The notes beneath the pieces were generated by a model. The model saw only the letters and a list, made by a program, of their open reading frames with translations. It was not told where the DNA came from and made no database searches. Source: Vulcanimicrobiota bacterium (GTDB taxonomy: Bacteria > Vulcanimicrobiota > Vulcanimicrobiia > Vulcanimicrobiales > Vulcanimicrobiaceae). Taken from it: a DNA stretch of 50,895 bases. Positions 40,012-43,591 of the stretch are shown piece by piece. How positions within the stretch are numbered: the first letter of the stretch is position 1; each line of letters opens with the position of its first letter. The translations under genes were made by a program, and so were the position numbers. Location of the stretch: positions 1 to 50,895 of the forward strand of contig DAIDGX010000011.1 in NCBI GenBank assembly GCA_027452165.1, given 5' to 3'.

Positions 40012-40353
40012 ACGTTGCATTAAGCGTCGCATAATGGCGCGTTAGCCCGCCGGCCCGGCGGCGCGACCGGGATCGTAGTGGACGGGCGCTTCGCAGCCAC
40101 GTTCCTCTCGGCCGGTGACGGATTGGAATGCCTGGGGCTCGCGGTGGGCGCGTGGTCGTCATTGAGCGTGAGCTCTCGGCGCGGATGCGCGCCCAAGCCG
40201 GAATTGACCTGGCCGCGCTGCCTGTGGCGGGCCCTTTGGCCTAAAGCCGGGCAGCGTTTTGGCCGTATGTTCGAATAAGAAGAGAGGCGCGCTGCGTGAG
40301 GTGTTCGCTGCGGGCTTGGAATCGTTTGGTGAACTGATCCTGAAGGGAGCGCT
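40012..40353. other. Intergenic region before the chemoreceptor pair
   Basis: About 340 bp with GC-rich short inverted repeats (such as CCGCC/GGCGG near 40050) and no convincing gene. A 66-codon frame (40078-40278) lacks family features. I checked for a c-di-GMP riboswitch and saw no convincing aptamer pattern. A promoter for the chemoreceptor genes must lie here but none stands out. Confidence 0.4.
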
Positions 40354-42036
40354 GTGATCTCCGCCTATTTTGCGGGGCTACGTGCCCGGCTGAGCCTCGT
40401 GGCTCGTGTGCTTCTCGCTGTAGCGGTGGCCGTCGTGGCCTGCTCGATCGCGTGGTTCGGGGCTCCGGCTCCCCTTGAAGCCTTATTGATCGCACTCGTT
40501 GCCCTGGCCGCTGCCGCAACCGGCTTCTCGCTCGGCGCGGGCGTGGCGGTGCTGGTGGCCGTCGCCGACTACCTGGCGCGCGTGCATCATCTCGCGGGCC
40601 ACGCCACGCTCGGTGCCGCTGTCGTTCTGGTGGCGGGCATCGTGACGAGCGCGCTTTTTCACGGTGAGATGGCGCCGGTGGAAGAGCTCGAGAGCTTGCC
40701 GTCGGGTTCGCTCGCGTTTCGCGCAAGTCCGCGGATCGCGTTGCCGCGCGGCGAGACCGGCAACGTGGGTGCCTCGACCGGCATTGCGGCGCTGGCATCG
40801 GGCATTCGCGAAGTCTCGCAGGGTGACTTCACCAAAAACATCGCGGTCAGCGACGCGGCGCTTCAAGATTTGGCGATCGCGCTCAACAAGCTGATCTTCG
40901 GCATGCGCGAATTTCTCGGTCAACTCCATGCCAACGCCGGCAACTTGGGTTCGGCGGGAACGGATCTGCGCTCCACCGCTTCGACAGCGCTTGCCGTGAT
41001 CGAGGGTGCGTCGGTTGCGCAAGGGCAGTTAGACGAAGGCATTCAGGAGCAAACACGCATCGTCGAAGAGGCGACGGCGAAAGTGCTGGCGCTGGCCGAC
41101 GCGATCGCGACGATCGCCGCAGCCGCCGAAGAGCAGACGCGAGGCCTGGACGAGACGGCGCTTGCGGTGTCGAACATGGCAAGTTCGATCGAAGAGGTCG
41201 CTGCGCAGGTGGATTCGCTCTCGTCGATCTCGTCGGAGACCTCGCGCATCGCCGAGCGTGGCGGAACCTCGATCGGAACGATCGTCGATGGCATGCACAC
41301 GATTCGAGATACGATCAACGACCTTGCGGGCGACATCCGTCAATTGGGCAATAACTCCGAGCAGATCGGCGATATCGTCAAAGTAATCGATCGCATCGCC
41401 GAACAAACCAACTTGCTCGCGTTGAACGCCGCAATCGAGGCGGCGCGCGCGGGCGAGCACGGGCGTGGCTTCGCCGTCGTCGCGAGCGAGATTCGAAAAC
41501 TCGCCGACGGCAGCGTACAGGCGACCAAGGAGATCGCGGGGCACATCACCGCGACGCAGCACGTGATCGGCGAAGTGGTCGAAGCGATGGGTCGCCTTAC
41601 GGCGCGCGTGGAGGACAGCACGTCGAGCACGAGTTCTGCGTCGAGCGCGTTGCAAGAGATCGTGACGGCGGTGCTCGCGGCGAACCAGCAGATAAGCGAG
41701 ATCAGTTCGGTGACGCGCGCGATGAGCGCAAATTCGTACCAGGTGATTCGGCAGATCGAGGAGATCACGAAATCGGTTGCGGTGAACCTCAGGGCAACCC
41801 AATCGATGACGCGCCAGTCGGACGAAGTGAACAAAGCATTTTCCGACATCTCGTCGATCTCGCAGCAGAACGCGTCGTCGGTTGAGGTGCTAACGTACGT
41901 CAACAAAGAAGTGACCGACGCTGCGCAACGGATGTTGTCGTCGGTCGATCAGATGAACGATCTCGCAGGTGAGATCGACGGGCGCATCAAGCAGTTCAAA
42001 GTTAGCGACAAGGGCACGGAGGAAGTCAACGCATGA
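40354..42036 (+). CDS. Chemoreceptor signalling protein without a periplasmic ligand domain
   Basis: A 560-aa protein. Residues 14-35, about 42-75 and 85-102 are hydrophobic, giving three or four membrane helices with only short loops, so no external sensor domain. A HAMP-like stretch (about 145-190, [19 protein letters not shown] type) leads into a long methyl-accepting coiled coil. Its tip [18 protein letters not shown] (about 350-367) and following [17 protein letters not shown] are the canonical CheA/CheW-binding hairpin. GTG start with GGGAG upstream. The next gene, a Cache sensor without a signalling domain, overlaps by 4 bp. Confidence 0.92.
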
Positions 42037-43364
42037 GCTTACGCGTTCGCCTTTTGGGCACGATCATCGGCGCAATCGTCCTGTTCTTTATTATCAGCGT
42101 CGCCGCGGCACGATTGGTCTTACAGCACGACCTCTTTGCGCTGGGCGCCACGCAGGTAACCAACGGTTCGAGCGCGTTTGGCGGCTATTGGGACTCACGC
42201 AAGGACCAGATTCGCCTGCTCGTGGCGCAAGACGCGGTGAGCGATACGTTGCGTAAGGCACTGCAGAGCAACAACGTTGCCGCGCTGCAAGATCAACTCG
42301 CGAACATCGCGCGCACGTCGGGACTATCGTTCCTGACGATCACCGATCAAAACGGCAAGGTGATCGCGCGCGCGAACGGACCGCAACCCGGATCGCTCAA
42401 ATCCGACCCACTCATTCAACGCGCGCTCACCGGTGAAACCGTGAGCACCGCAACGCTGCTTGGGCAGTCGCTGCTCTCGGGCGAGGGACTTGGCCCGCAA
42501 GCCGAGGCCGACATCGTGGGCCCCGACGGCAAGACGAAGGTGCGCCACGACGACAAGGGGCTCGCGCTCGTCGCCGCCGCGCCGATCAGCGATCAGAACG
42601 AGCGCACGATTGGCGCGATCTACGGCGGCGTGCTGATGAACCACTATTACGACTTGGTGGATTCCGCCACGCACGCGCTCGGCGGTTCAGCGGCCATTCT
42701 GGAAGGCGACGCGATCGTTGCGAGCACGATCCAAGCGCCCGATGGCACGCGCACCGTCGATGAGTTGGTTCCGCCGGCGAGGGACGTGGTGAAATCGGAC
42801 ACGGCGTTTACCGGAACCGACACCGTCGGCGGGACGAAGTACCTCGTGCACATCGAACCCATCACCAACGACCAAAATCAAGTGATCGGCGCGCGCTGGT
42901 ACGGCACACCGCTCGCGCAGATCAGCGCGATCATCAACCACACCACGCAGACGCTGATCCTCTGGGGCGTGATTGCGGCGATTCTAGCGCTCGCGCTCTC
43001 GATTCCGATCGTGCAGCGCCTTTCGAATACGCTTGCGCAGCGCAGTCAGCAGGTACGTGCCGCGGCAAAAGAACTGGGCGTCGCCATTGTCGGCAGCGAG
43101 GTCTCCGGCGATCACGTGGCAATGACGAGGGCCGCAGTGGAACGCAGCGGTACGTTGATCGCCGAGCTCGGTGCAAGCGGCGTATCGTCGCCAAAGCTCA
43201 CCGAACTGAAGGCGGTGAACGACGAATTGACCGGCGACATGATCGTGATCGACACGCTCTCGCAAGAGATGAGCGGCCGTATGCAGCAGGCCGTGCAACG
43301 CGTCCACGATCTGAACGACGTCGCTGCCGGCTTGACGAAACTCGTGACGGGCGAATCGAGTTAA
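42033..43364 (+). CDS. Cache-domain membrane sensor without an output domain
   Basis: A 443-aa protein. One membrane helix (about 8-27), an extracytoplasmic double-Cache-like sensor (about 35-300) with [16 protein letters not shown] and [24 protein letters not shown] motifs, and a second helix (about 307-325). The cytoplasmic part (326-443) is helical and HAMP/coiled-coil-like, but there is no chemoreceptor hairpin, kinase, GGDEF or other output. ATGA overlap with the preceding chemoreceptor gene suggests the two proteins form one receptor. Confidence 0.85.
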
Positions 43365-43375
43365 GGTGAAACGTC

Positions 43376-43591
43376 ATGGCTGATGTCATTCTGTTCTTCT
43401 CGAGCAACGCCGACACGATGATCGCGACCAAAGCGCTCAAAGACGCCGGCGTTCCCGCGAAGATGATTCCGAAGCCCGCGTCGGTGACGTCGGCGTCGAA
43501 TCTGTGCTTGAGCATCGACGGCGGCGTCGAGGCGCAGGCAAAGACGGCGCTCTCCGGCGCTGGTGTCGCCCTTGGCGGCGTGGTGAAATAG
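43376..43591 (+). CDS. DUF3343 (putative Se/S carrier-like) small protein
   Basis: A 71-aa protein matching the DUF3343 pattern: VILFFSSNADTMIATKALKDAG, then KMIPKPASVTSASNLCLSI with C44 at the position of the conserved Cys. Members are proposed selenium/sulfur carriers or small regulators, usually beside thiol or selenium genes. Here it is 11 bp behind the Cache sensor, so it probably belongs to the same transcript. Function in this setting unknown. Confidence 0.75.
   Translation: MADVILFFSSNADTMIATKALKDAGVPAKMIPKPASVTSASNLCLSIDGGVEAQAKTALSGAGVALGGVVK

Follow-up and report, generated by a model that had tools for sequence, protein, structure and literature searches.

Two adjacent genes in the window, by which we mean the whole 50,895-nucleotide stretch of DNA that was analysed, likely encode a bipartite chemoreceptor in which a membrane-anchored protein (CB) would do the sensing and a separate methyl-accepting protein (MCP) would signal to CheA/CheW (probability of roughly 0.72). 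There is good support for MCP and CB making up a single functional receptor, namely their near-perfect co-occurrence, an invariant 4-nt overlap, a conserved gene order, and the lack of any fusion of the two. Physical assembly through the membrane and HAMP-like helices is a plausible proposal. The source genome is an Eremiobacterota MAG of 2.64 Mb in 27 contigs that is 95% complete. The initial annotation had described a signalling gene and a Cache gene overlapping by ATGA, and both open reading frames lie where it had placed them, as follows.

40354..42036, + strand: MCP, putative signalling subunit without an extracellular sensor (GTG start, 560 aa; PF00015 at 1e-43)
40396..40659, + strand: four-helix membrane head of MCP, aa ~15-102 (hydropathy, orthologues, AlphaFold2)
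40660..40773, + strand: variable linker of MCP, predicted disordered, aa ~103-140 (orthologues, model)
40774..40947, + strand: HAMP-like helix-connector-helix of MCP, aa 141-198 (sequence and low-confidence model)
41227..41772, + strand: PF00015 signalling region with the kinase-control tip (Pfam, orthologues)
42033..42036, + strand: ATGA start/stop overlap, 4 nt (39/39 same-contig genomes; GGAGGAA upstream within the MCP 3' end)
42033..43364, + strand: CB, putative sensing subunit, a membrane-anchored dCache protein without an output domain (ATG start, 443 aa; Pfam, orthologues, PDB dCache fold)
42114..42953, + strand: extracytoplasmic double Cache domain of CB, aa ~28-307, between TM1 and TM2 (Pfam, hydropathy, model, Foldseek)
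43017..43361, + strand: cytoplasmic tail of CB, aa 329-443, predicted helical hairpin (model, orthologues; no Pfam family)
43376..43591, + strand: PF11823 Se_S_carrier (DUF3343), small gene downstream of CB (Pfam, gene order)

Conservation and context of the gene pair

The overlap between MCP and CB is exactly 4 nt in each of the 39 genomes that have the two genes measurable on one contig, all from one GTDB family, and its retention is far beyond chance. A 40th value in the same output (G075a) belongs to cacheA, a second sensor gene discussed below, and was left out of the 39. An SD-like sequence fitting the pattern used lies upstream of the CB start, inside the last MCP codons, in 36 of these genomes; the remaining three read AAAGGGG or AAAAGGGGG at that position. 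Given the overlap and the SD-like sequence, the arrangement appears to be a stop-restart coupling of two proteins rather than a frameshift.

We surveyed orthologues of both proteins with CB and MCP profiles over 149 genomes of the phylum. Strong CB orthologues were present in 45 genomes, all in one GTDB family, and the weaker CB-profile matches were other proteins. The MCP orthologue was found once per genome in 46, namely the 45 genomes with CB and one more (G062), whose contig ends 64 bases past MCP; both genes were absent from the rest. The pairs span about 20 genera. The adjacent pair was sought in other genomes at the suggestion of the initial annotation, and the two findings that it had named as speaking against a split receptor were looked for and did not appear: no MCP-CB fusion was found among the relatives in the 149 genomes, and CB orthologues never stood apart from MCP on contigs that permit a judgement. 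Outside family f1, the CB-like matches were ordinary Cache proteins of one chain; judged by sequence, L092 is a histidine kinase and L093 probably a nucleotide cyclase. We also considered a split receptor in the sister family f3 and rejected it, given that these genomes each have one MCP, located inside a che cluster and carrying its own two-helix extracytoplasmic region. A scan of 84,980 species, sensitive to close relatives only, returned nine loci, all from MAGs named Eremiobacterota or Eremiobacteria apart from one named only "bacterium."

Wherever the contig reaches, the genes are ordered as M54 peptidase, an optional cacheA, MCP, CB, and the PF11823 gene, usually followed by NDK and enolase (ENO). 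Since the frozen order extends well past the pair and takes in housekeeping genes (NDK, ENO), the adjacency of MCP and CB by itself is partly a matter of inheritance. The PF11823 gene stands close behind CB and is a possible third member of the operon. One locus (L055, contig C110 of G057) carries a tandem CB-PF11823-CB-PF11823 arrangement, which could reflect either a genuine duplication or a fault of the assembly. No structured RNA was found in the region, and a promoter scan gave nothing above chance.

CheA, CheW, a CheC-type phosphatase, and a CheY-like receiver adjoin FlhA in the source genome, and CheR and CheB are also present, both on one contig with the CheA/CheW group. Given this set of partners, an output from MCP to the flagella is plausible. 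Genus g5 has neither an MCP nor CheW and lacks the MCP-CB pair; several CheW-bearing genomes (e.g., G035, G077, and G117) also lack it, so the pair is not essential to the pathway. Each of the other MCP-domain proteins examined in the source genome consists of one chain, in which the MCP domain is combined with HAMP, CHASE3, a membrane head of six segments, or a DctP domain. At L102:12648-15440 (minus strand, contig C8), the same genome encodes a 931-aa open reading frame without clear membrane anchors, in which a DctP/TRAP solute-binding domain (348-625) lies between two MCP signalling tips, making it a double-headed MCP.

Architecture of the two proteins

The domains of MCP and CB complement each other, as seen by Pfam, hydropathy, and structure models; the AlphaFold2 models are single-chain and of low confidence, with a mean pLDDT of 55 for MCP and 58 for CB. 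The first gene had been described as a full methyl-accepting domain without an external sensor, which agrees with our results: MCP matches PF00015 at residues 292-473 (1e-43, above cut-off), matches no sensory Pfam domain, and has no periplasmic domain according to hydropathy and the AlphaFold2 model. The tip that controls CheA is complete, and this kinase-control region (aa 331-395) is 0.96 identical among orthologues. Hydropathy places four closely spaced membrane segments at the N terminus, the third of them weak, and the model has helices at 15-35, 42-56, 58-78, and 84-100, followed by an unstructured stretch to 140 and a HAMP-like helix-loop-helix at 141-198. This multi-helix head is kept in nearly all of the orthologues examined but is poorly conserved in sequence (mean pairwise identity of 0.32 over aa 1-105), and conservation is lowest of all in the linker of about 40 residues (0.24 over aa 106-146). 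Identity is 0.60 over aa 147-200, the HAMP-like region. As for the HAMP-like helices that had been proposed, the label comes from the MCP sequence (GDFTKN...DLAIALNKL) and the weak model; the Pfam HAMP model matches neither MCP nor CB. One MCP orthologue (L085, G120) is shorter, at 468 aa, and largely lacks the HAMP-like stretch in the alignment.

The second gene had been read as a double-Cache-like sensor with two membrane helices and no output, and this description held. CB matches sCache_3_2 (78-144), sCache_3_3 (202-303), and dCache_3 (54-286) above cut-off, has membrane helices at 7-25 (TM1) and 309-327 (TM2) by hydropathy, and matches no Pfam output domain at E<=1. No PAS family matched CB, and its convincing Pfam matches are to extracytoplasmic families of the Cache type only. 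Among its solved-structure matches by Foldseek are the dCache domains of several chemoreceptors and kinases, CtaA and DctB being examples, and by sequence it matches 8py0 and 8py1, both ligand-binding domains of chemoreceptors. The cytoplasmic tail, of about 115 aa, is predicted to consist of two conserved helices joined by a variable loop, whose length differs by up to about 20 residues between orthologues, and AlphaFold2 models it with low confidence as a hairpin with one helix to about residue 381 and a return helix at 387-439. We found no Pfam family or known domain in this tail. We asked whether it could be homologous to the MCP helices and rejected this, given that the profile comparison was not significant (probability below 7%). 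Conservation reaches 0.81 in the tail over aa 341-360 and is about 0.7 over 401-440, with 0.64 for TM1 and 0.54 for the sensor domain. Better conservation of TM1 and the tail helices than of the sensing domain, together with a loop of varying length, is the pattern that a fixed protein partner of the tail would produce, and it points to control in trans.

The second sensor gene cacheA

A second, diverged Cache gene, cacheA, lies upstream of MCP in five genomes. It is intact in four of them (G097, G033, G089, and G075), where it is 30-37% identical to CB, and internally deleted in the fifth (G098), which has lost the whole Cache domain but still has membrane helix 1 and the final part of the tail. 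The intact copies in the L008 and L012 records carry Cache domains, and their tail is related to that of CB. In the window, the gene survives as a relic ahead of MCP.

40042..40204, + strand: cacheA relic, fragments in different frames (GGATGIVVDGRFAATF, VVVIER..ELSARMR..RPSRN), from tblastn of the L008 cacheA and blastn

Residues 188-222 of the L008 cacheA align by tblastn at 40042-40146 with 63% identity over 35 aa (1.5e-11); blastn gives 1.5e-10, and C-terminal scraps extend to about 40204. G034 has no room for the gene (gap of 76 nt), whereas its sister G033 keeps it. The simplest account is that one ancestral second sensor existed in this part of the tree and has disappeared or been damaged on three or more occasions, with MCP and CB staying together throughout. 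The earlier suggestion that a split receptor would allow its sensor to be swapped is supported only indirectly, as the gain or loss of a second sensor: a gene of about 30% identity beside the same MCP was kept in some genomes and lost, truncated, or decayed in others, the window among them, but CB itself was never exchanged. We tentatively consider, at somewhat less than even odds, that one sensor-less MCP could be the common output for two distinct dCache sensors anchored in the membrane, CacheA and CacheB, whose related hairpin tails would dock on its uncoupled HAMP-like part and signal to it in trans.

Proposed signalling, alternative readings, and known systems

The last membrane helix of an ordinary MCP continues straight into HAMP. 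Here, a variable linker of some 40 residues intervenes between the membrane helices of MCP and its HAMP-like helices, an arrangement that speaks for control in trans. We propose that translational coupling would cause both proteins to be made together as neighbours in the membrane. CB would be the ligand-binding part, probably as a dimer, with TM2 running into the short cytoplasmic helical hairpin, and MCP, comprising a four-helix anchor, a flexible linker, HAMP-like helices, and a kinase-control hairpin, would couple to CheA/CheW. Ligand could then move TM2 of CB, and this movement may pass through the CB hairpin to the HAMP-like or adaptation part of the neighbouring MCP, where the change would alter CheA activity and, with it, flagellar rotation. 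The architecture, co-occurrence, overlap, gene order, lack of fusion, che genes, and second sensor gene with its relic are observed; in this model, the binding of the subunits to each other, the surface at which they meet, the ligand, and the influence on CheA are inferred. Coevolution, which the initial annotation had wanted checked in the membrane-helix residues, was analysed as rate covariation. Partial correlations of pairwise distances over 28 genomes, controlled for NDK, M54, and PF11823, ranged from 0.14 to 0.47 between the two proteins, the same size as the values within each protein. The CB tail and the signalling part of MCP gave 0.47; as evidence for contact between MCP and CB, this rate covariation is weak, being underpowered and carrying no significance test.

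We considered that MCP might sense alone through its four-helix head, for example, the state of the membrane or of cellular energy, with CB providing a second, modulatory input. Transducers are able to read energy state through their membrane heads, and the near-universal retention of the head among the orthologues examined would fit with such a role. We nevertheless regard this as unlikely, given that the head ranks with the most poorly conserved parts of MCP, that it is joined to the rest by a variable linker, predicted disordered, and not by a continuous helix, and that MCP is always accompanied by CB on contigs that permit a judgement. Another reading, in which CB is an independent sensor for some other partner, such as the PF11823 protein or an unlinked kinase, and is merely co-transcribed with MCP, is somewhat less probable still. 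Co-transcription is no proof of contact, and the PF11823 gene does follow CB wherever the contig reaches, but the start/stop overlap of CB is with MCP and not with PF11823, and cacheA, with its related tail, flanks this MCP on the opposite side, so that MCP is the neighbour common to both sensor genes.

Since the sensing and signalling parts of a chemoreceptor are ordinarily found in a single chain, the split could also be taken for a sequencing error, a frameshift, or a pseudogene of an ordinary receptor. This is extremely improbable, given that CB has its own ATG or GTG start, SD-like site, and membrane anchor and that it begins at the C terminus of MCP, a position at which ordinary MCPs never carry a sensor. 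The two reading frames are open with the 4-nt overlap in 39 genomes (39/39), which, together with the lack of any fused relative, led us to reject a frameshift or a fusion.

Bipartite receptors are known from Aer-type receptors divided into an MCP and a PAS protein, namely CetA/CetB of Campylobacter jejuni, which serves energy taxis (PMC2628428), and CetBA2 of Magnetospirillum gryphiswaldense, whose genes overlap (PMC12442639). As in CetA/CetB, the genes described here are adjacent and encode a sensor-less membrane transducer and a separate sensor without output. However, CetB is a cytoplasmic or peripheral PAS-FAD redox sensor, whereas CB is integral to the membrane and combines an extracytoplasmic dCache domain with a predicted hairpin tail; given that the PAS domain, the defining part of CetB, is absent from CB, the pair is not a CetAB system. 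In the SRII/HtrII complex of haloarchaea, a membrane sensor is likewise separate from an MCP-type transducer, with a modelled contact between the receptor and the HAMP region (PMC5292967). That sensor is a seven-helix retinal protein for light, unlike CB with its two membrane helices and Cache domain, and we claim no sequence relation. MCP and CB would nevertheless work in a manner like that of both these systems. CB shares its type of extracytoplasmic ligand-binding domain with single-chain dCache/sCache_3 chemoreceptors and kinases (CtaA, DctB, 8py0/8py1), which differ in carrying Cache and output in one chain. A survey of Cache proteins assigned known output domains to nearly all of them (PMC4822843). 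Among open-licence papers, the only split receptors we found were of the PAS type, and a membrane-anchored extracytoplasmic Cache sensor without output that serves a separate MCP was not found there among known bipartite receptors.

In summary, if MCP and CB do work as one receptor, extracytoplasmic sensing and kinase control in chemoreceptors would be possible without one continuous chain. This would bear on transmembrane signalling, which is usually described as a helix movement that continues into HAMP. The family would also be a natural example of a receptor that can gain or lose a sensor subunit with no change to its signalling subunit, and the paired genes in about 20 genera provide natural material on the contact surface.
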